Source: a virus
Virus record (IMG/VR): IMGVR_UViG_3300010370_000242
Coordinates: 1-23,865 of that record
Strand: one strand, 5' to 3'
Length of the DNA stretch: 23,865 bases
In this document: positions 3,680 through 23,349 of the stretch, in pieces
Position numbering within the stretch: the first letter of the stretch is position 1
Layout of the letters: each line of letters opens with the position of its first letter
Translations under genes and position numbers: made by a program
Notes under the pieces: generated by a model
Told to the model about the DNA's origin: nothing
Database searches by the model: none
Seen by the model: the letters and a program-made list of their open reading frames with translations, nothing else

Positions 3680-5563
3680 ATGCCGGGTATCGCCGAGACG
3701 ACGGATGCGTGGTGGCTCCTTCATCAACAGAAGGAAGACCCGTACCTTGCGCTTGTCGGTGCGGTAACCGCGATTCGCAATGAGTCGGCGTACCGTCGAC
3801 AGATGTGGACGCGCGCGGCGGAGGTCTACGGCACCGATCTCAAGATGTTCGGAATGCCGGTAAAGAACGTCTGGGACGAGCGGGTCTCGTTCAATGTTGC
3901 GCGGAACGCGATCCACACCATGCAGGCCAAGCTTGCACGGCAGATGCCTTTGCCCAGCACCGTGACGGTCGGCGGAGACTTCTTGCAGCGGTACCGTGCA
4001 AAGCGGCTTGATCGGTTCCTCGCGGGCGCGTTTTCGGCCGCGGAGTACTCGAAGATCTACTCGCAGCTGTTGCTCGACGTCCTCGTCTTTGGCCAGGCAA
4101 TGGTCAAGGTCTACGTCAACGCAGACCGTCAGATCGTTATCGAGCGCATCCCGGTGTTCGACATCCTCGTGAGCGAGCCCGAGGCGCGATACGGAACGCC
4201 ACGGTGTTTGTACCACCGTTGCTACATGGATCGTTCCGTCGTGCTCGAAGCATTTGGCGATGACGACCCGAGTCTGTATGGCTCGAAGGCGGACCGTCGC
4301 AAGGCAATCTTCGACGCGCCGAAGCCTGCTGACGACGACTCCAACTACATGAATTCGTCGCGCTACTCGGACCAGGTGCTGGTCTACGAAGGCGTGCATC
4401 TTGCCTCGGGCGCCTCGGCAAAGGATGGCCTTCGCGTCATTGCATTGCAGACCGGCACGCTGCAGGCGACCCCGTGGCGTCGTTCGTCCAACTTTGGTTG
4501 GGCCTTTCTCCGTCTCAACTCGACGCTGGCAGGGTTCTACGGACCATCGATGGCGCTCGAACTGGCGGCTGCGCAGGACGAGTACGATCTCCTCAGCGAG
4601 AAGATTCAGACCGCGCACAACCTCATGGGCGGCTCGCACTTCGCTGTGCAAGCCGGCACCATGACCAAGACCAAGATCGACAACGATGTCGGGACCATCT
4701 TCGAATACGAAGGTGCGCCCCCGATCGTCTTCAATCCGCAGCCGGTCCACCCCGACACGTATTCGTACAAGGACATGATCGCGCAGAACATGCTGCGCTA
4801 CGAGGGCATCAGCGAACTGGCCGCGCAGTCAGTTTTGCCGGCCGGTCTTCGTCAAGCATCGGGGCGTGCCCTCACGGTCTACGACGACATGGAAGACTCG
4901 CGCTTCCGTGTTGCGCACGAAGCAGTCCGGCAATTTCACGTCGACATTGGGTGGCTCATTGTCGATGCGTGCGAAGAGGCGGCTGCGGACGGGATCGAGG
5001 TCGAGGTCCTTGGCCCTGGTGCTGGCCAGGCGGAGCGCATCAACTGGTCGCAGGTGGCGCTCGATCGCAAGGAGTACACGCTCCGCTGCGAGCCCATCAG
5101 CGCGCTTTCGCAGACCAAGGCTGCGCTCTTCCAAGAGGTCCTGGAACTCGTCGACCGTAAGGTCATCACGGACCGCCGTGTCGTTGCGAACCTCCTGAAC
5201 CTGGCGGACATCGATGCGGACCGCGACCTTGAGACTGCTGACATCGACGTGGTCGACAAGGCCGTGTCGCTGATTCTACGCGGCGAGGACTACCCGGATC
5301 CGGATAAGCGCCTTGACCTGGCTGTCGCGTACGACAGAGCGCGCAAGCATTACAACAAGGCCCGCGTCGATGGGGTGTCGGAGGACCGCCTGATCGCGCT
5401 CGATGACTACGTCACGAAGATCGAGGCGCTCATCGAGCAGGCCCGACAAGAGCAACAGGCTGCGGCGGCAGCTGCCCAACGGGCACAACAGGAGCAGGCT
5501 GCCCCGCCGCCACAGGAAGCACCTCAGCCCGAGGCGCAGACGATGGAGGCCATGAATGTCTGA
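3680..5563 (+). CDS. Portal protein (head-tail connector)
   Basis: At 627 residues, located between TerL and an acidic scaffold, this is the portal that forms the dodecameric channel at one capsid vertex. The N-terminal helical part (SAYRRQMWTRAAEVYGTDLK) leads to VSFNVARNAIHTMQAKLARQ (69-88), a wing/stem pattern common in podovirus-type portals. The strand pattern AMVKVYVNADRQIVIERIPV and the core ...YDLLSEKIQTAHNLMG... follow. The last ~45 residues are Gln/Ala/Pro-rich coiled coil and disordered tail. The assignment rests on order, length and overall pattern rather than a diagnostic motif. The ribosome binding site before the ATG at 3680 is weak (GGCTGGAA). The end overlaps the scaffold start by 8 bases, which suggests coupled synthesis. 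Confidence 0.88.
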   Translation: MPGIAETTDAWWLLHQQKEDPYLALVGAVTAIRNESAYRRQMWTRAAEVYGTDLKMFGMPVKNVWDERVSFNVARNAIHTMQAKLARQMPLPSTVTVGGDFLQRYRAKRLDRFLAGAFSAAEYSKIYSQLLLDVLVFGQAMVKVYVNADRQIVIERIPVFDILVSEPEARYGTPRCLYHRCYMDRSVVLEAFGDDDPSLYGSKADRRKAIFDAPKPADDDSNYMNSSRYSDQVLVYEGVHLASGASAKDGLRVIALQTGTLQATPWRRSSNFGWAFLRLNSTLAGFYGPSMALELAAAQDEYDLLSEKIQTAHNLMGGSHFAVQAGTMTKTKIDNDVGTIFEYEGAPPIVFNPQPVHPDTYSYKDMIAQNMLRYEGISELAAQSVLPAGLRQASGRALTVYDDMEDSRFRVAHEAVRQFHVDIGWLIVDACEEAAADGIEVEVLGPGAGQAERINWSQVALDRKEYTLRCEPISALSQTKAALFQEVLELVDRKVITDRRVVANLLNLADIDADRDLETADIDVVDKAVSLILRGEDYPDPDKRLDLAVAYDRARKHYNKARVDGVSEDRLIALDDYVTKIEALIEQARQEQQAAAAAAQRAQQEQAAPPPQEAPQPEAQTMEAMNV

Positions 5564-7861: not shown

Positions 7862-7874
7862 TCGGCCTGGCATT

Positions 7875-7929: not shown

Positions 7930-8346
7930 ATGGCTCTGAACCGATACCTTTATCCTGCGAAGAACTCGAACCTTCCCGAGTTCGTCATCATGTCGCAACG
8001 TTGGGGCGTTGGCGTCGATGGCGCGGTTACGCCGCTTGGTGCGACGACCGACCTTGGCCGTGGCCTTGAGCTGAACCTCACGGCTGCCCCCGGCGTTTCC
8101 CCTGGATCGTATATCCTGAAATTTGCGCCTACCAGTGACGGGCTATATCCGAGCGTTGGTGGCGTTGTGCAGCCGATCGTGACCATCATGGACTCGACGG
8201 TTCCGACCCTTGTGCAGATCACGGACATTGGGCCATCGTACGTCACGTTCCAGGTCACCACGTACACGGGCGCCCCGGACAACGTCTCGAACGGCGGCAA
8301 GATCTGCGTCAGCCTCATCTGCACCAACAGCTCGGTGGTTGCCTGA
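7930..8346 (+). CDS. Probable capsid-associated (decoration-like) beta protein
   Basis: A 138-residue protein starting MALNRYLYPAKNSNLPEF. The ATG at 7930 sits 6 bases after AGGAGA, and the open frame upstream is ignored for that reason. The sequence is beta-rich, with regular Val/Thr alternation (YVTFQVTTYTG, ICVSLICTNSS) and Gly/Pro turns, and ends in a short hydrophobic tail. Directly following the capsid gene, it is a good candidate for a head decoration or vertex protein. That function is inferred from position and fold type; no signature motif is recognised. It shares the TGATG junction with the next small gene. Confidence 0.65.
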   Translation: MALNRYLYPAKNSNLPEFVIMSQRWGVGVDGAVTPLGATTDLGRGLELNLTAAPGVSPGSYILKFAPTSDGLYPSVGGVVQPIVTIMDSTVPTLVQITDIGPSYVTFQVTTYTGAPDNVSNGGKICVSLICTNSSVVA

Positions 8347-8597
8347 TGAAGGGCAAGGGCGGCATGGCTCTCATGATCGCCATCGGCAAGAAGAAGCCGG
8401 GGATGGGGGAGGAGCGACCCTCCTCTCCCTCCCTGGGGTCTGATTCCGAGGATGAGGGCATGGACATGACGGGAACCTTGGAACCGCTTGCAAAGGCCTT
8501 CTTCGAGGCCGGCGCAAAGGGCAAGTTCAAGCAGGCCGCGCAGCTCTTCCAAGAGATGCAGAAGTGTTGTGGTGAGGACTACGAGGAAGACGACTGA
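8346..8597 (+). CDS. Small acidic head-region protein
   Basis: An 83-residue protein. It has a basic Gly/Lys start (MKGKGGMALMIAIGKKKPGM), an acidic low-complexity middle (SDSEDEGMDM), then a helix (LEPLAKAFFEAGAKGKFKQA, about 46-65) and a CCGEDYEEDD tail. From memory, many phages have a comparable tiny protein with a single amphipathic helix next to capsid genes; its role is not established. The start at 8346 overlaps the preceding stop (TGATG), and its own stop overlaps the next ATG at 8597, so all three are likely translated in series. Confidence 0.65.
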   Translation: MKGKGGMALMIAIGKKKPGMGEERPSSPSLGSDSEDEGMDMTGTLEPLAKAFFEAGAKGKFKQAAQLFQEMQKCCGEDYEEDD

Positions 8598-9589
8598 TGG
8601 CATACTCGCGGACTTTGTCTGAGCTTGAGTTGGCCGTGCGGCGTGAAGCCGACATGGTGAACTCTCAGTTCGTGACCTCGGACGAGGTGCGCGAGTACAT
8701 CAACCAGTCGTGGGCCGAACTCTACGACCGAATGGTCCTGTTTGATCAGGAGTATCTCCTGCGCTATGTGGACATCTCGTCTTCGGTGGCCAGTAGCGCA
8801 GGAGATTTTGACATTCTCAACGACGGCAAGACTGGCCTCGTGAGAAGCGTCTCCTGGATTTTGCCGAGCGGAACCGGCTACGCCGTGGGCGATATCATTG
8901 TCCTGACGCAGCCGTCCACCGGCGCCTCCAACGCGTGGGCGCAGGTTACCGAAATCACGGGCGGTGGCGCGGTTGTCGCGGCCGACGTCATCATTGCCGG
9001 CAGCGGGTATGTTAGCAACTCGTTGAGTACGTCGGTTGCGACCGTCAATATGAGTGCGGTCCCTGGTGGTGGCGGCTCTGGTGGCCAGGCGTTTGCGTAT
9101 GTCGAGTCGGACTTTTACAAGTGCAAGGGCGTGTGGGTTTCCGACACGACGGCAGGTGGTGCCGGTTGGAATCCTCTGCGTCGGTTCCAATGGGACGAGC
9201 AGAACGCACTTCGTCAGGCTGACCTGTATGGCGGCATGACGGCGCTGCCTCTCTATCGCCTGTACACGGTATTCGGGCGCGAGAAGGTCGGAATTGCGCC
9301 AATGATTACCGGCGTCTACAGGATTTGGTATTACCCAGCTCCTCAGAAGATGTTGCTCCCGCAGGATCGCATCGACGGTCGAGCGGGCTGGGACGAATGG
9401 GTTGTGAAAGACGCCGCGATGAAATGCCTCGTTAAAGAGGAAAGCATCGAGCAGGCCGCGAGCATGAAGGCGCTCCGCGACGAGATCTTCAAGCGTTTCG
9501 AGATCCATGCGGCTGAGCGCGATGCGACGCAGCCAGAGCGTGTGCGTGATGTTCGCCTGTTGAGTCGACGAACCTTTCCGTGGAGGTGA
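8597..9589 (+). CDS. Head-tail adaptor protein with an inserted beta domain
   Basis: The ends of this 330-residue protein match the gp6-like adaptor pattern. The N-terminus has TLSELELAVRREADMVNSQF, VTSDEVREYINQSWAELYDR (6-45). The C-terminus has YRIWYYPAP (241-249), then LDG-like RIDGRAGWDEWVVKDAAMKC, a KEES helix (280-283) and a DATQPERVRDVR end. Such adaptors ring the portal and connect it to the tail. Between 'FDI' (71-73) and 'AYVESDFYKCKGVWV' (167-181) lies an extra Gly/Thr/Val-rich stretch (about 76-166) with GTGYAVGD and GSGYV motifs. Typical adaptors lack it; it looks like a domain insertion. The start overlaps the previous stop, and GGAGGTGA near the end serves the next gene. Confidence 0.85.
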   Translation: MAYSRTLSELELAVRREADMVNSQFVTSDEVREYINQSWAELYDRMVLFDQEYLLRYVDISSSVASSAGDFDILNDGKTGLVRSVSWILPSGTGYAVGDIIVLTQPSTGASNAWAQVTEITGGGAVVAADVIIAGSGYVSNSLSTSVATVNMSAVPGGGGSGGQAFAYVESDFYKCKGVWVSDTTAGGAGWNPLRRFQWDEQNALRQADLYGGMTALPLYRLYTVFGREKVGIAPMITGVYRIWYYPAPQKMLLPQDRIDGRAGWDEWVVKDAAMKCLVKEESIEQAASMKALRDEIFKRFEIHAAERDATQPERVRDVRLLSRRTFPWR

Positions 9590-9592
9590 GCG

Positions 9593-10009
9593 ATGCCGCA
9601 AACGAAGCCGCAGCAGTACACGCCGGCACCGACTGGCAACGAGACGATTGACCGCATTCAAGACGTCGTGCGTCAGACGACGGAGGCAGTGCGCAATGGA
9701 CCGCCGAACCAGACGACGGTTAAGTCGCTCATCAAGAACAAGCCTGACCAGGGCATTGTGTTCCGTCCTGGGCAAACCGTGGACGTCCCGCACGACCTTG
9801 GCAGATCTGCCAATGGCTTCAACATCGCAAAAGTGTTGACCAACACGTCCTTGGCGAGCAGCGCGCCAGCAGCGGTTCCCAATCTGCAGGTCGTTCCTGT
9901 GTCGGGACCACTCGGGCAGAAGATCATGCGCCTGCGCTACATCGCTCCCAAGGACGCGGACGGGAATGATATCCTCGACCCCGTTCGCTTGCAGCTGGAG
10001 ATTCGGTGA
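9593..10009 (+). CDS. Hypothetical virion/connector protein
   Basis: A 138-residue protein with a strong ribosome binding site (GGAGGTG, 9582-9588, overlapping the adaptor stop). The first ~45 residues are polar and probably helical (TIDRIQDVVRQTTEAVRNG). The remainder is a probable beta domain (IVFRPGQTVDVPHDL, LQVVPVSGPLGQKIMRLRYI, VRLQLEIR). The gene lies between the adaptor and the large tail protein, so a small connector, tail or spike-anchor role is plausible but unproven. I recognise no family. Its stop overlaps the start of the next gene. Confidence 0.65.
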   Translation: MPQTKPQQYTPAPTGNETIDRIQDVVRQTTEAVRNGPPNQTTVKSLIKNKPDQGIVFRPGQTVDVPHDLGRSANGFNIAKVLTNTSLASSAPAAVPNLQVVPVSGPLGQKIMRLRYIAPKDADGNDILDPVRLQLEIR

Positions 10010-13000
10010 TGGAAGAGCGCGTTGTCAGTGTTCCCCTGATTGGTGGCATCAATGAGGAGGATGACATCTTTGCGGTGCAGCCGCCGGAGATGCTCCAACT
10101 CACGAATGTCCAAGCTGTCAAGAAGGGTGCACTGGACACGCGTCTTGGCTTTACGCTTGTCAGCAAGAGCCCGACGCTCGTGCAGCCGGCCTCGTCCTTC
10201 CGTTCGACGGACGGTACGACGCAGCTGATTGGGAACAAGATCGAGGCGCTTGGCACGTATGCGGCATCGACCGGCATGCGCCCGGTGCTGGCGTCGGACA
10301 GCAAGTTCTACGAGTACGTTGGCTCTGATGATTTGCACGGGTTCCGCGAGGTGAACGACCTGCCGGCGTACGTCGGCACGCTTGCCTCGGTTTCATCGAC
10401 GGGCGGCAGCATCATTGAGATCGAGAGCGCCCTGTTCGACGACGAGACGAAGCGTATTACGGTATGGATTACCGGCAAGCGCACTGGGCAAGAGCTGTCG
10501 TCGGACCGCATGATGCTCGATCAGGTATCGGGTGATGGAAACTCGGTCTATTACTCGATTCAGTGGGCCGACAACGAGGCGTACATCGTTCCTCCGACGC
10601 GCCTTCTCTCGTTTTCCACCGGGTATGTCACGAGCGCCACAAACCTTCGCCTTACTCTTGTGCAGGGGAACACGGCGACGCGCGAACCGATGGCGTTCTG
10701 GTGGAACTACACCTCCGGCGAAGTCGAATGCGTGGTGTTCTCACCGGTCACCGGTGAAGCGTTTCCCACGTACGTGCTCCCTCGTACGGTTTCGCTGGTA
10801 AATGCGCATCGAACGTTCGATGTCGTGGGGTTGTACAGTGTTACGTCAAACCCCTATCCGTACTACACGTTTATGTACGTCCTGTGTGAACAGGATACCG
10901 CGAGCAACACTACAGCGGCGCGCGTAGAGGCGTACGTTGCGTCGATTGCGCCTGGCATTCCAGGCGTCACGACGCTTGCCACCATCTCGGATATTCTTCC
11001 GAGGACGGGTAGCGGAAGCTTTTACTTCGTACCGTGGGCAAATCGTGGAGCGGTTCTTGAGCAGGAGCCAGAGATGGTGTCCGGCACTGGAACGGATTGG
11101 ACCGGGACCGCGTCAATCGCCGTACGTGTCATTGCGCGACAGTACGGGCCGGAGGGTATCCCAAGCCCCAAGCTGGATGGCCAAATGGCGCTTGGTCGGC
11201 TTGTTGCCTCAAGCGCAGGAGGTGTAGTGACCCTTGCGAAGCAAGGTTTTAAGTACATCCCGTACATTGGCTTTCAGACCAACGACGACATCACGCAGGT
11301 GACCGCGACGACCGCGGCGCCGTTCCACTACAGCGGCGCTCCGCGTACGACCAGGCCGCTGAAGACGCTCGTGAACGCGTTGATGGTCGCTCTGCCGGAA
11401 GACGGTCCGTACGACGCGTCGGGTACGGCCGTGCAGACGAATCCCATTGCGAGCGAGTGGGCGGTGACGATGACTCTCGCCGACCCGTTCAACAGCCAGC
11501 AGACGTACATGTGCACGGCTGGCGTTGGCGGCGACGAGCTGTTTACGCTGACCCCGTCGTCCTCGCGAGCGTTCATGACTCTCACGAGCGGTCTTGATGC
11601 GAACGCTCGACCGCTTCAGAGAATTCGTGATGCGTATCCGCGTACCGAGCATTCGTACCTAGGCGGTATTGAAATCCCGTTTTTCACAGTCACGTTTCCA
11701 AACAACCAGGTAAACCTGCTGGAGATTCCGGCGGCCGGTGTAAACAATATCGGATTCACCAATGGCATCTATACCGGTGTGAGTGTGTTCGATGCTCCTG
11801 CCGGCAATGTGATTGCAACGGCAACCGTGTGCGTGGTCAATGGATCGATTGCCTCTGCGGCGATCGAGAACACGCTTGCTGGGCCACTCCCTGGGTATGC
11901 ATTTGCGGGCCCTGGCACCTCGATTGTCGGTATCCAGTTTGATCCACTCTATGTCGGCGCAGGGACGCTCACGGGCGCTCGCGCGTGGAACGTGACGCAT
12001 AGCCTTCTGCAGGTCCCGACCGGCTTTGATGAGCCGGACCGAAGCACGCTGCCGCCCAACAATTTCTACTTCACGTGGGTGAACCAGCAGGAGCACTGCG
12101 TGCATCGCTGGTCGGTCGCGCATTCCGCCGGGATGGACCTGCTGTTGTTGTCGAGCACGAGCGCGACGCCAGTAACGAATCCACAGGCGGACGCTCCATT
12201 CGGCGCTGCAAGCCCGATGCGGTACAACAACTTCTGCGAGTTGTACCGGTACACCTCTGCAGTCATTCCAGAGTATTCTGCGCTTGTGCCGATCAACGGA
12301 GGCGTAGTCTCGAATAGCCCGTTGTCATGTGCGATGGGCGGGCCGTGGCGCGTAGTTGGCGGCCTTGTGCGAGACAACGACAAGTTCTACGCAGCCGTGT
12401 CTCCGTCGGGAGACGACTCACAAACGAGCACGTTCCTGCTCCGCATGTCGCTCTCCGACGAGGTAACGATCATCGTGCCAAACGGGCAGGACTATGAGCC
12501 TAGGCCTAGCCCGTCCATGTTTGAATACATCAACAACAAGGCCATGTTTGTCGAGGCGGCAAACATGATGCGCGTAACGGCCGTGCCGTTGAACGTGCCC
12601 ACGTTGCGAGTGACGAACGCCGGCATGACGATGGGCGCGATGCGCAATGGGTCGTCGAAGGGCACGCAGGAATGCATGGCGCTCGACTATGAGTTCGTGG
12701 CGCAGAACTATCGCACGATGCTGCGCATGTCGGACTACACCTTCGTCAACGGTGGTGTTCTTTCGGCGTTTGACGGCGTGAATGTGAGCGAGGCGGGGCT
12801 GTTGATGTGGCCTCAGCGAGACCTCACGAGCGTGTCGTGGAGCGATGGCTCGGTACGTGCCGCATACATCGCAAGCGATCCGGTCCTCAGCGTGCAGATG
12901 TTTGAGCAGTTTAACGACAGCACGCCATTCCGTGGCTCGCACACGCTGCTGTTCAACGTCACGCGGCCCTACTTCTTCTACGAGGCGGGGCTCAATGGTG

Positions 13001-15051
13001 GGGCTAATCCTGCTCGATGGGAGCAGGTGCGCACCAACTGGGGCGGCGATCCGTCGCAGAACTACGAGGCGGTCTACGCGGATTCGAGGCTTCAGCAGTT
13101 CTCGACCACCACGAAGGTGGGGGCACGCGGCGGTGTCGACTTCTACGGGCCGCACTACTACGGCCGTTATCAAGCCACGCCGACCGACTTTGAGATGATC
13201 GCGCCGTACAATGCTCTCCGCCGACAGCAGGCCGGCTCTGCGAGCTTGTCGGCGTACTTCCTGTGGGCTCCGCGTGCCGCGCGTGGGTGGACGTTTCCGC
13301 AGAACAAAGAGAGCGCCTATACGCAAGCGGAAGCGGCCGGCGACTTCTTGATGTCGTGGTGCTACGAATATGCGGATGGCACGGGCCGCATGGTGCGCTC
13401 GGCCCCGTCGTCTCCGCAGCAATTCACGGTTTGCGCGGAGATCTGGAGCCCGGACGGTTCGCCCGGAACGCTCGGTCGTCGCCGAGCTGGTGGCGAGGTC
13501 TCGCGGTATCGGTGGGGATTCTTCGCTCCGCGTCTGGAGCTGACGAATCGCCTGTCATCGGCACAGGTCGATCCACGCCGGGTGCTGTTGCAACCGTACG
13601 CGACGTGCGAGCCGTACGCCACGGTAATGTATCGCATGCCGTGGTCGAACTTCCAGAATCCCATCAGTGACTTCGTCGTTCCTCGGAATGCTACGCGTGG
13701 CGTTGTTCCAAACGTTACGACTCCGTATTACCCAAACAACCCGTGTGGATTCGTCACGACGAACATCAACCAGCCGCCGTCGGTTCCCGGTGCGACGGAT
13801 GGCGCGAACGCGATGTTCGACGGTCCAACGGGCGATTACATGGGGATGTTGCGTGAGCCGTTCCTGTACACGACGGGAGGCGTTCTCGACAACGTGGCGA
13901 CGCCTGGCTGCAAGGCGATGTGCGTGCACCAGAATCGACTCGTGGTGAGCGGAGCGGATGACGCTACGGTCGTTTGGTTCTCAAAGGAGCTGACGCCGAC
14001 GGACGCCGTTGGTTTCAACGACCTGCTCACGCTCAACATCGAGGCAGGTGGCGCCGTGACTGGTCTTGCGTCGATGAACTCGGCGTTGTTCGTCTTCAAG
14101 AAGAATGATGTCTACGTCGTCTCCGGAACGATGCCCGACAACTCTGGCAATCGCTCCGGATTGTCGGAACCTACGCGACTCCCGTCGGGTATCGGGTGCA
14201 TCGACCACCGCAGCGTACTCTCGACGCCGATCGGTATCTTCTTCCGGTCAACGCGCAGCATCGAGCTACTGAGCCCGGACCTGCAGATTCGCTCGATTGG
14301 CGACAAGGTGATGGACCGCCTGAAGGCGTACCCGTACGTAGTTTCCGTCTCGCACAACGCAATGACCCAAGAGGTGTACTTCGTATGCCAGACGAATCGA
14401 CTGTCGCGCACTGTCGGAAGTGCGGATGTCATTGTGCTCGTCTACAGCTACCTCATCAACGCGTGGTATGAGTGGGACGTCACTGCAATGGGCACGGGGC
14501 AGGCGTGCATGACCGTGCTCGGCGATCAGCCGTGGATTGCCATGAAGGAGCCAAACCGCATCACGCCGCCGACTCCGCAAGCATATGTGTACCGGCAGAT
14601 TGAGGACCAGTATGCAGACTGGCTTGAGACGCCGGGCGTGAACACGTGGCTCTACTCGTTCATTCCTGTGTCGTGGTTCACCGCGCCGTTTGCCCTGAAC
14701 CAGGTTCAGGGATTCCAGCGTGTCAAACGATGCAGGCTTCTCGCGCGCATCAACAGCGGGCCGGATATTCCTGGCTTTCAGTTTTCGTTGGCGACCGATA
14801 CGAGCGCCGCGCAAACGTCCTCCTGGACGTCCGCTCAGGTGACCCAGGTCTACGCCACCCAGAATGCGATTCAGCTTGAGACGCACGTGGCAAACCAGAA
14901 GGGTCAGTTGCTGGCCCTTGGGTGCCAAACAACGGCTCCGACGTCTGGTGTTACCTCAACTGGAAGCAACATCCGGTTCAGCAACATTGCGCTCGTTGTC
15001 GGCTTGAAGGCTGGCCTGAACAAGCGTATCACCGAAGAAGCAAAGCACTAG
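10009..15051 (+). CDS. Giant nozzle-like tail protein (1680 residues)
   Basis: By order (after portal, scaffold, capsid and adaptor, before ejection proteins) this is the counterpart of podovirus tail nozzle/tubular B proteins (T7 gp12 or P22 gp10 role). The N-terminus VSVPLIGGINEEDDIFAVQP resembles the start of those proteins. A beta-propeller-like region near the C-terminus (about 1295-1500) has repeats such as AMCVHQNRLVVSGADDATVV, FVFKKNDVYVVSG and GIGCIDHRSVLSTPIGIFFR (about 1395-1414), a pattern I associate with phage nozzle proteins. The middle ~1000 residues are Thr/Asn/Tyr-rich beta sequence with no recognised motif. The protein is about twice as long as T7 gp12. The ATG at 10009 (TGATG overlap) is preferred to the GTG at 10006. 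It may combine nozzle and fibre functions. Confidence 0.75.
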   Translation: MEERVVSVPLIGGINEEDDIFAVQPPEMLQLTNVQAVKKGALDTRLGFTLVSKSPTLVQPASSFRSTDGTTQLIGNKIEALGTYAASTGMRPVLASDSKFYEYVGSDDLHGFREVNDLPAYVGTLASVSSTGGSIIEIESALFDDETKRITVWITGKRTGQELSSDRMMLDQVSGDGNSVYYSIQWADNEAYIVPPTRLLSFSTGYVTSATNLRLTLVQGNTATREPMAFWWNYTSGEVECVVFSPVTGEAFPTYVLPRTVSLVNAHRTFDVVGLYSVTSNPYPYYTFMYVLCEQDTASNTTAARVEAYVASIAPGIPGVTTLATISDILPRTGSGSFYFVPWANRGAVLEQEPEMVSGTGTDWTGTASIAVRVIARQYGPEGIPSPKLDGQMALGRLVASSAGGVVTLAKQGFKYIPYIGFQTNDDITQVTATTAAPFHYSGAPRTTRPLKTLVNALMVALPEDGPYDASGTAVQTNPIASEWAVTMTLADPFNSQQTYMCTAGVGGDELFTLTPSSSRAFMTLTSGLDANARPLQRIRDAYPRTEHSYLGGIEIPFFTVTFPNNQVNLLEIPAAGVNNIGFTNGIYTGVSVFDAPAGNVIATATVCVVNGSIASAAIENTLAGPLPGYAFAGPGTSIVGIQFDPLYVGAGTLTGARAWNVTHSLLQVPTGFDEPDRSTLPPNNFYFTWVNQQEHCVHRWSVAHSAGMDLLLLSSTSATPVTNPQADAPFGAASPMRYNNFCELYRYTSAVIPEYSALVPINGGVVSNSPLSCAMGGPWRVVGGLVRDNDKFYAAVSPSGDDSQTSTFLLRMSLSDEVTIIVPNGQDYEPRPSPSMFEYINNKAMFVEAANMMRVTAVPLNVPTLRVTNAGMTMGAMRNGSSKGTQECMALDYEFVAQNYRTMLRMSDYTFVNGGVLSAFDGVNVSEAGLLMWPQRDLTSVSWSDGSVRAAYIASDPVLSVQMFEQFNDSTPFRGSHTLLFNVTRPYFFYEAGLNGGANPARWEQVRTNWGGDPSQNYEAVYADSRLQQFSTTTKVGARGGVDFYGPHYYGRYQATPTDFEMIAPYNALRRQQAGSASLSAYFLWAPRAARGWTFPQNKESAYTQAEAAGDFLMSWCYEYADGTGRMVRSAPSSPQQFTVCAEIWSPDGSPGTLGRRRAGGEVSRYRWGFFAPRLELTNRLSSAQVDPRRVLLQPYATCEPYATVMYRMPWSNFQNPISDFVVPRNATRGVVPNVTTPYYPNNPCGFVTTNINQPPSVPGATDGANAMFDGPTGDYMGMLREPFLYTTGGVLDNVATPGCKAMCVHQNRLVVSGADDATVVWFSKELTPTDAVGFNDLLTLNIEAGGAVTGLASMNSALFVFKKNDVYVVSGTMPDNSGNRSGLSEPTRLPSGIGCIDHRSVLSTPIGIFFRSTRSIELLSPDLQIRSIGDKVMDRLKAYPYVVSVSHNAMTQEVYFVCQTNRLSRTVGSADVIVLVYSYLINAWYEWDVTAMGTGQACMTVLGDQPWIAMKEPNRITPPTPQAYVYRQIEDQYADWLETPGVNTWLYSFIPVSWFTAPFALNQVQGFQRVKRCRLLARINSGPDIPGFQFSLATDTSAAQTSSWTSAQVTQVYATQNAIQLETHVANQKGQLLALGCQTTAPTSGVTSTGSNIRFSNIALVVGLKAGLNKRITEEAKH

Positions 15052-21268: not shown

Positions 21269-21793
21269 GTGCCGGCCCCACGACTTGCTCACGCGAACCC
21301 GTCGCTCATCACGAAGCGATGGGGCTCGTTCTGGGATGCAAACGCGCCTCAGACGATTCCGTCTGCAAACGCCACGGCGATCATCACGTTCAACACGTCG
21401 GACCCGCTGAGCAACGGTGTCAGCATGGTGAGCGGAAGCCGGATGACGTTTGCGACAGCGGGCGTGTACTCGATCACGTTCTCGATCCAGTGGTCGAACA
21501 GCAGCGCGACGGCGTACGATTCGCAGGTCTGGCTTCGCAAGAACGGGATTACGTCCGCGTTTGACGTCGCGGATTCGAACAGCCGGTTCACGGTCACTGG
21601 CAAACACGGAGCAACGCACGGCCACATCATCGGCACGGTGAACTTCGTGATGACGCTGGCCGCTGGCGATTACCTCGTGTTGGCCTGGTCAGCGGAGGAC
21701 GTTGCCGTCACCATCGAGACGACGGCGGCATCGGCTGGACCTCCGCAGGTACCTCGCACGCCTGGGATTATCCTCACCGCCACTCAAGTTTGA
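21269..21793 (+). CDS. Jelly-roll (C1q/TNF-like) tail fibre or receptor-binding protein
   Basis: A 174-residue protein. RWGSFWDANAPQTI, then MTFATAGVYSITFSIQWSNS, DSQVWLRKNG, LAAGDYLVLAWSAEDVAVTI and a closing GIILTATQV match the strand order of the phage jelly-roll domain common in tail and head fibre proteins of environmental phages. Such trimeric domains usually bind receptors or glycans. The GTG at 21269 is the first start in this frame and has only a weak ribosome binding site. The upstream short frame with a good site suggests the real N-terminus may be longer via a frameshift. Residues 1-17 before the jelly roll would then be part of the particle anchor. Confidence 0.75.
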   Translation: MPAPRLAHANPSLITKRWGSFWDANAPQTIPSANATAIITFNTSDPLSNGVSMVSGSRMTFATAGVYSITFSIQWSNSSATAYDSQVWLRKNGITSAFDVADSNSRFTVTGKHGATHGHIIGTVNFVMTLAAGDYLVLAWSAEDVAVTIETTAASAGPPQVPRTPGIILTATQV

Positions 21794-22206: not shown

Positions 22207-23349
22207 ATGGGCGCCCCTCGTATCCTTGCCCCGACGACGATCTCGGGCGGCATCCCCACGGCTGGTGCGGGTACGCTCAACACGGTTGCGCTGTGGACGC
22301 CTGACGGGTTCACGCTCGGCAACTCGCTGCTGACGCAGGCGGGAAGCGTCATCACGAATGCCACCGGAGCAATCCGCGCCAACGGCACGACGCAGACGAC
22401 TCCAGCGTTCATGCGTTATGACGCGACGAACAGCGGCATCTACTTCCCGGCGGCGAACGAGATCGGATTCACGATCTCTGGTCAGCACGCGATGTTCATC
22501 AGCTCCGGTCGCCTCGTCGGCATCGGCACGACGAATCCGGGCGCCAAGCTCCATGTCGTTGGCAATACATGGATCACGAGCGGCAACCTCTTTACAGACA
22601 CCATCGTCCCGTATTCTGGAGGTGCAACACCTCTAGCAATTGCAAGTTTAATCTACGCTCGCGTGGATACGAACACCGTCGGCATCGGCACGGCGAGTCC
22701 GGGTGCTCAGTTTCAGGTGGAGCGTGCTGGAGGGCTTACGGCGAACGCTGAATATATTCGCCTGCGGAATACGACAGTCGCATCGGGATCGAACGTTTCG
22801 CAGAGCTTCTTCGTCAACGGAAACACGGTCGCCACGGGGAACATTTCGCATACCTGGAACGGCACGACTTACGACACCATTTTCAACGCATGGAACGGCT
22901 CCGCGCTTGCGGAAGCTGGCCGCGCCGTTGGTGGAACGACGCCTGTTCTCTCCGTGCCGTCAGGCCTCAAGCTCCCCGCGACGCCGGGCAACGCGGACAC
23001 GCAGACGTTGGACTGCTACGCGGAGGGCACCTGGACGCCAACGGTTACTGGTTTTGGAGGTACAGCGCCCACCGTCACGGGACGATATACGCGCGTTGGA
23101 CGACTTGTAACGCTCTCCGTGCTGGTATCGGCTACGGGTGGCGCGCAGTTTAGCTCGACCGCAACGACTACCTACATTTCGTTGCCATCGGGAATGACGC
23201 CAACGACGGCATCGCAGCCCGGCGCAACGTCGAACAGTGGCATCGCAGCGGATGGGCCATGCGTTGCGTATACGAACGGCAATCTGTACTTGCCGACGTT
23301 CGCGCTGCGCACCGCCGATACGTTCCTAACCGTCACCTACATGATTTGA
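22207..23349 (+). CDS. Tail fibre with GIGT beta-repeats
   Basis: A 380-residue fibre protein. Two VGIGTxxPGAxxxV repeats (VGIGTTNPGAKLHV near 104-117, VGIGTASPGAQFQV near 158-171) are the well-known beta repeat of trimeric phage fibres and of proteins ending in an endosialidase-type chaperone domain; no chaperone domain is present here. The C-terminal EGTWTPTVTGFGG, GRYTRVGRLVTLSVLV (from about 274) is a common tailspike/fibre tip domain. The short N-terminal part (PTTISGGIPTAGAG) probably anchors to the tail. The ribosome binding site is weak (CGGGAAC). A lower-GC stretch with a hairpin lies between the two repeats, which may mark a module joint. Confidence 0.85.
   Translation: MGAPRILAPTTISGGIPTAGAGTLNTVALWTPDGFTLGNSLLTQAGSVITNATGAIRANGTTQTTPAFMRYDATNSGIYFPAANEIGFTISGQHAMFISSGRLVGIGTTNPGAKLHVVGNTWITSGNLFTDTIVPYSGGATPLAIASLIYARVDTNTVGIGTASPGAQFQVERAGGLTANAEYIRLRNTTVASGSNVSQSFFVNGNTVATGNISHTWNGTTYDTIFNAWNGSALAEAGRAVGGTTPVLSVPSGLKLPATPGNADTQTLDCYAEGTWTPTVTGFGGTAPTVTGRYTRVGRLVTLSVLVSATGGAQFSSTATTTYISLPSGMTPTTASQPGATSNSGIAADGPCVAYTNGNLYLPTFALRTADTFLTVTYMI
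22516..22692 (+). repeat. Direct DNA repeat encoding the GIGT motif
   Basis: The 15-base GTCGGCATCGGCACG occurs at 22516-22530 and 22678-22692, followed in both by a similar (N/S)PG(A) segment. It is the DNA trace of the protein repeat, 162 bases apart and in frame, so recombination between the copies would remove exactly 54 codons. Confidence 0.7.
22616..22636 (+). repeat. Hairpin inside the fibre gene
   Basis: CTGGAGGTG (22616-22624) and CACCTCTAG (22628-22636) form a 9-bp stem, with one G-T pair, around a CAA loop. It starts a locally AT-richer patch with unusual codons (CTA, TTA) and contains an internal Shine-Dalgarno-like GGAGGTG. Confidence 0.55.

Follow-up and report, generated by a model that had tools for sequence, protein, structure and literature searches.

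Adaptor rings are commonly regarded as conserved virion plumbing. A 23,865-nucleotide stretch of viral DNA (IMG/VR record IMGVR_UViG_3300010370_000242; hereafter the window) encodes a putative head-tail adaptor that carries an additional segment rich in glycine, threonine, and valine. This raises the questions of whether the segment is a domain separate from the adaptor core, and what such a domain might do at the neck of the virion.

Results

Domain organization of the adaptor protein

The open reading frame at positions 8597–9589 of the plus strand encodes a protein of 330 residues, which can be divided into an N-terminal core, an inserted beta-module, and a C-terminal core, all given here in plus-strand coordinates. 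The N-terminal core (residues 1–74, positions 8597–8818) comprises helices and the first dock hairpin. The beta-module (residues 75–169, positions 8819–9103), delimited by comparison with relatives and supported by its predicted fold and variability, includes the Gly/Thr/Val-rich stretch described in the initial annotation, with the sequence motifs GTGYAVGD (residues 92–99, positions 8870–8893) and GSGYV (residues 135–139, positions 8999–9013). The C-terminal core (residues 170–330, positions 9104–9586) was defined from block identities and a family-to-family profile alignment. The chain re-enters the core at SDFYKCKGVW (residues 171–180, positions 9107–9136), which is invariant in 22 aligned sequences. 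The limits of the insert were set by eye because aligners misplace the gap approximately 20–30 residues too far upstream: carriers have the insert between FDIL and SDFYK, and in insert-free proteins YxLP is joined directly to SDFYK. The limits proposed previously, 8822–9097, deviate from these by at most two residues.

The structure of the 330-residue protein was predicted from 22 aligned sequences, selected from 34 by excluding near-duplicates and truncated copies. The model has a mean pLDDT of 72.9 and a pTM of 0.67, with values below 50 for residues 201–215 and 303–330. It can be superimposed onto the SU10 adaptor (PDB chain 7z4f_H) with a Z-score of 10.0 and an rmsd of 3.3 over 190 residues, and onto the SU10 chains in general with Z-scores of 9.7–10.0 (188–190 residues). 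The adaptors of cyanophage A4 (Z-score 10.7), KHP30 (10.0), GP4 (9.8), and N4 (8.9) are tied with that of SU10 within the method, and a SU10 chain ranks first in Foldseek (E 1.2e-4). The model thus indicates a head-tail adaptor fold of the SU10/T7 type, composed of a helix bundle, a beta dock region, and a C-terminal segment, and the parts flanking the insert do follow the adaptor pattern recognized initially. The same three elements are shared with SU10 gp11 (PF24175) and, by domain plan, with T7 gp11; the 250-residue SU10 gp11 has no domain comparable to the insert.

At the sequence level, the Pfam family PF24175 (SU10_adaptor) does not match the window protein, either with the insert or as the excised core, and hhalign finds no match to the SU10 adaptor by itself. 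The family is matched by 13 of the 22 aligned relatives at E-values up to 1, and in single scans six of nine close relatives exceed 27 bits (L003, L018, L021, L024, L027, and L062; L-numbers denote related contigs), with L015, L017, and L023 below. Rough mapping through the PF24175 coordinates places the insertion site near residues 60–75 of the SU10 protein.

The gene context is compatible with that of the SU10 record. The window contains a terminase match (phrog_38, E 9.7e-9) and a SU10-type major head protein (PF17236, SU10_MCP, E 1.6e-8), which, as in SU10, is followed by a small gene and then by the adaptor gene. The portal is assigned by size and place, and the scaffold by place alone. 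The putative portal gene, 3680–5563, has a single PHROG match of weight, to phrog_332, which is labelled head-tail adaptor. Positions 10006–15051, 3′ of the adaptor gene, encode a giant protein of 1681 residues, the only PHROG match of which is phrog_511 (internal virion protein) at residues 1303–1464. By eye, the start of this protein looks nozzle-like.

The SU10 adaptor is described as a dodecamer between the portal and the nozzle, the dock domain of which receives the long fibers (PMC9509320). The T7 adaptor is reported to have the same plan, including the fiber dock (PMC6702177), and the P-SCSP1u adaptor is described as following the plain T7 plan (PMC10575957).

The insert is a predicted beta-domain absent from the distant relatives surveyed

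The insert is predicted to fold into strands and turns, with pLDDT blocks of 80–93 over residues 71–180, which speaks against an unstructured linker. The predicted strands span residues 80–86, 100–105, 110–120, 126–133, 147–154, and 164–171. Segment 75–169 is therefore modeled as a beta-domain inserted in the dock region, in agreement with the initial reading of a beta-domain interrupting the adaptor.

A protein search identified 33 contigs encoding relatives at 60–80% identity, and all 33 carry the segment. The 80 relatives kept of 113 from a profile search added nine carriers and 39 distant relatives; 38 of the latter span the site and, judged by eye, lack the module, and L099 ends before it. 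In a survey of 63 distinct distant adaptors, taken from the best 80 of 351 relatives of an insert-free query and, because of that query and selection, biased towards insert-free proteins, the module occurs in none. The site in these proteins holds 0 (31 proteins), 2 (11), 8 (16), or 14–17 (5) extra residues. The insert-bearing and insert-free family profiles align end to end except for the insert (1–323 with 1–223, Prob 99.9, E 2.5e-36). The possibility that close homologs carry the segment as an integral part of the core fold is borne out as regards its presence in every close relative found; integral it is not, since it is exchanged among relatives and missing from distant ones.

Searches of named phages detected no relative of the window adaptor at E-values up to 1, nor, at E-values up to 1e-3, of one insert-free adaptor relative or the putative portal. 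In bacterial and archaeal genomes, 23 stretches fit a pattern, none of which was confirmed as a relative.

Additional segments also occur elsewhere in distant adaptors. Those of L094 (5001–5843) and L101 (5001–5936) have them shortly 5′ of a DGISGW/DGVSGW motif. The adaptor reading frames of L074, the start codon of which is unsure, and L075 have N-terminal additions; judged by eye, the addition in L075 resembles a fibronectin type III domain. Matches of the adaptor model in BFVD include several predicted proteins of uncultured phages with lengths of 280–745 residues and one of 1308 residues, so enlarged adaptors may be common.

Exchange and enlargement of the insert

Block identities were calculated for 23 dereplicated proteins of the 34, after removal of the truncated L028 and L030 and of near-duplicates. 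Averaged over pairs, identity is 0.93 for residues 1–56, 0.60 for 57–74, 0.40 for the insert (75–169), 0.67 for 170–260, and 0.81 for 261–330. At the DNA level, the insert is seen to be replaced within nearly identical flanks: identities of the N-terminal core, insert, and C-terminal core are 0.98, 0.53, and 0.87 for L013–L021; 0.98, 0.53, and 0.85 for L012–L021; and 0.94, 0.56, and 0.90 for L017–L023. The insert is the least conserved of the three DNA blocks in 17 of 21 chosen pairs, the exceptions being L012–L013, L015–L033, L012–L014, and L032–L069. Cores are at least 85% identical in 29 of the 231 pairs formed by 22 genomes; the inserts of ten of these pairs are at most 45% identical and those of three at least 85%. 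A control block, the 95 residues after SDFYK, never falls below 75% identity in the 29 pairs, which are not independent of each other and include the enlarged L062 insert in two of the ten low-insert pairs.

Silent distances decouple in both directions. The core is close and the insert distant in L007–L016 (0.032 and 0.348) and L062–L065 (0.025 and 0.205), and the reverse holds for L015–L033 (0.273 and 0.051) and L017–L020 (0.113 and 0); L012–L013, L023–L031, and L012–L014 display no decoupling. The dN/dS ratio of the insert was defined in 13 of 15 pairs, where it ranges from 0.04 to 0.88 and is thus always below 1. Positive selection as the only driver of insert divergence was set aside because the silent sites of the insert have diverged as well. 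The insert behaves as a variable cassette that is swapped among related phages almost independently of the adaptor core, probably by recombination.

The same site accommodates a much larger insert in five related contigs (L062–L066), the proteins of which are 96% identical. As measured on L062, this insert has approximately 415 residues. It opens with the initial half of the standard module, continues for approximately 330 residues in which a propeller-like repeat is discernible by eye, and re-enters the core at SDFYK. The L062 core is identical to that of L008 at 67 of 71 and 151 of 162 positions. The propeller region has sub-threshold Pfam matches to DUF6923 (E 0.001) and SGL (E 0.059), and a sequence search against the PDB gave no match at E-values up to 1. 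The predicted structure of the 649-residue L062 protein, with a mean pLDDT of 43.8, was discarded. The visible repeat and the Pfam matches make a nested propeller probable in the inserts of L062–L066.

The insert does not co-vary with neighboring structural genes

Distance correlations were calculated for 22 hand-picked genomes, without near-duplicates and truncated copies, using the best tblastn segments for gene distances. The insert correlates at 0.03–0.24 with the core and with seven neighbors, namely the portal, g327, the head protein, the gene in decoration position, g83, g138, and the first 500 residues of the giant protein; these low values arise in part because the distances of strongly diverged inserts saturate. 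The core correlates at 0.41–0.65 with six of the seven neighbors and at 0.13 with the gene in decoration position. In partial Mantel tests controlled for the core, the insert gave null results against the portal (−0.16, p 0.95), g327, the major head protein (−0.001, p 0.49), g83, g138, and the giant protein (0.12, p 0.12, n 22). The suggestion that the domain docks the giant downstream tail protein thus finds no support in the distances.

A fiber-like protein is encoded at 22207–23349 (phrog_18345, E 1.3e-5). Its N-terminus is 83% identical to that in the L021 contig (residues 1–113) and 79% identical to that in the L023 contig (residues 1–121), and the remainder diverges. The inserts of L021 and L023 are 28% and 24% identical to that of the window, so that three phages combine similar fiber N-termini with three different inserts. 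Matches to the fiber were found in four of the 12 contigs searched, which may stop short of the fiber gene. The two cases argue against insert-specific docking of the window fiber, the seat of which on the adaptor is itself putative; docking of a fiber or of the giant protein by the insert is possible. The product of 21269–21793 has a weak, below-cut-off match to the BclA C-terminal domain (E 0.0056) and could be a receptor-binding head.

Related modules in other virion proteins

Among 50,697 phage records searched with the L017 insert at E-values up to 0.01, the only match is the tail sheath of Xanthomonas phage X1 (E 5e-3). The insert profile aligns to residues 238–299 of this sheath (Prob 92.5, E 5e-7). 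With L024 as the query, the X1 sheath (E 0.02) and a structural protein of Synechococcus phage S-RIM2 (E 0.8) are both matched on the insert region. The GxGY module of the X1 sheath is therefore profile kin of the insert, although its carrier is a sheath protein.

A second likeness is to domain I of the T4 sheath protein gp18, an insertion that is reported to protrude and to bind retracted fibers, and in which three mutations inhibit fiber retraction (PMC3004832). Against eight T4-type domain I sequences, the insert profile reached Prob 36.5 and P 3.7e-4. When repeated with controls, the comparison scored 26.1, whereas 100 column shuffles reached at most 13.2 and the reversed profile 8.5; three unrelated profile comparisons gave P 0.25–0.53. 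Residues 99–188 of gp18 (PDB: 3fo8) can be superimposed onto residues 83–171 of the model with a Z-score of 6.4, which may reflect a common arrangement, and an rmsd of 3.8 over 80 residues with 16% identity. The insert may share with domain I the plan of a small, inserted beta structure, that of gp18 being a protruding barrel, and GSNYAVGD of gp18 corresponds to GTGYAVGD of the window. They differ in carrier protein, the profile probability is only 36.5, and the window family stays under the Pfam cut-off for domain I (PF22639), which three of 22 sequences matched at E-values up to 1, with 0.029 as the best value; scores of 13.7 and 13.2 bits fell short of the required 27.

Seven of the eight inserts scanned have weak PHROG hits at E-values of 0.1 or less, some of them to baseplate wedge, head decoration, head closure, and tail proteins, and one insert has none. 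For the window's own insert, the single hit (E 0.075) is to a major tail protein. In the PDB, the family profile sub-significantly matches the Dpo31/Dpo36 tailspike over the insert (profile positions 79–176, E 0.086), a match that the insert profile did not recover; the latter matched MapZ (E 1.5). The insert-free profile gave two unrelated PDB matches (E 0.3–0.5), and a match of the window protein to adenylosuccinate synthetase (E 0.045) was rejected as chance-like. No carbohydrate-binding family was detected at its cut-off; CBM_6 appeared in three of 22 sequences at E-values up to 1 (best 0.037; L015 13.5 bits against 28.9). The sheath, PHROG, and tailspike matches are in keeping with the resemblance to fiber and spike surface modules that the composition had suggested.

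A GxGY stretch is also present in the gene in decoration position, the place of SU10 gp10, in four of 22 contigs (L002, L014, L018, and L021). The L021 protein is 42% identical to the L062 insert (E 6e-6) and matches the insert profile with P 1.6e-4. In the window, the gene occupies 7930–8346, between the major head protein gene and a gene for 83 residues; its start codon is probably the ATG at 7930, not the TTG at 7873. It represents a second variable slot: the MALN start is kept and the length varies from 128 to 347 residues across the 22 contigs. L008 has a tandem pair of MALN-family genes, at 4925 and 5342, and the other 21 contigs examined have a single one.

Discussion

We favor, at close to an even chance, the explanation that the insert is an exposed accessory surface module for adhesion or decoration, an exchangeable beta-cassette in the dock of a SU10/T7-type adaptor. 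The anatomy has good support: a small, separately folded module interrupts the dock region, inserted between two of its strands, and related phages swap it, presumably by recombination, and now and then enlarge it. Because adaptors of this type form 12-fold rings in SU10 and T7, the module would be displayed twelve times around the neck, presumably facing outwards. There it may contact outside partners, such as host-surface polymers, instead of forming a fixed structural joint. We prefer this explanation because the insert is exchanged and enlarged, does not co-vary with the capsid, portal, or giant protein, and is shared with decoration and sheath proteins.

The strongest rival, on account of the position in the dock and the precedent of T4, is that the module extends the fiber dock and seats or retracts tail fibers as gp18 domain I does. 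The carrier domain is indeed the fiber dock in SU10 and T7 according to the cited descriptions, and the insert resembles domain I in structure and profile. The conserved fiber N-termini beside divergent inserts, and the existence of the same adaptor type without any insert, make this role rather unlikely. A bracing role, in which the module connects the capsid vertex or the portal with the adaptor ring, has a precedent in roseophage R4C, the adaptor of which is described as having an Ig-like attachment domain that contacts both (PMC10276861). R4C likewise has an extra beta-domain beside the adaptor core; it is an N-terminal Ig-like domain of a siphophage adaptor, and not an insertion in a dock hairpin. 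Since inserts are exchanged between near-identical cores and do not track the head protein or portal, we give a brace only a slim chance. Nearly as improbable is a tolerated passenger, a mobile domain of little consequence for the virion in a hairpin that is merely permissive. The range of sizes at the site, from 0–17 to approximately 415 residues, and the look-alike modules in other virion proteins would fit such a passenger, whereas the retention of the insert in all close relatives found and its dN/dS ratios below 1 oppose it.

A wider form of the surface-module explanation, which is conceivable but doubtful, makes the neck ring a variable display platform. Its permissive dock hairpin would accept exchangeable binding modules of up to approximately 415 residues with a nested propeller, presented as twelve adhesins. 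The cassettes would be exchanged independently of the capsid, portal, nozzle, and fiber anchor, and drawn from a repertoire of modules in which head decoration and tail sheath proteins also take part. Our searches of the open-access literature turned up no description of an adaptor with an exchangeable module. GxGY modules recur in decoration proteins and sheaths, and because insert-free and module-swapped versions exist in nature, the role of these modules is directly testable. The locus suggests that the phage neck can act as a display surface. If so, the neck would join the fibers and capsid decorations in the outward interactions of the virion, by means of an exchangeable ring domain.
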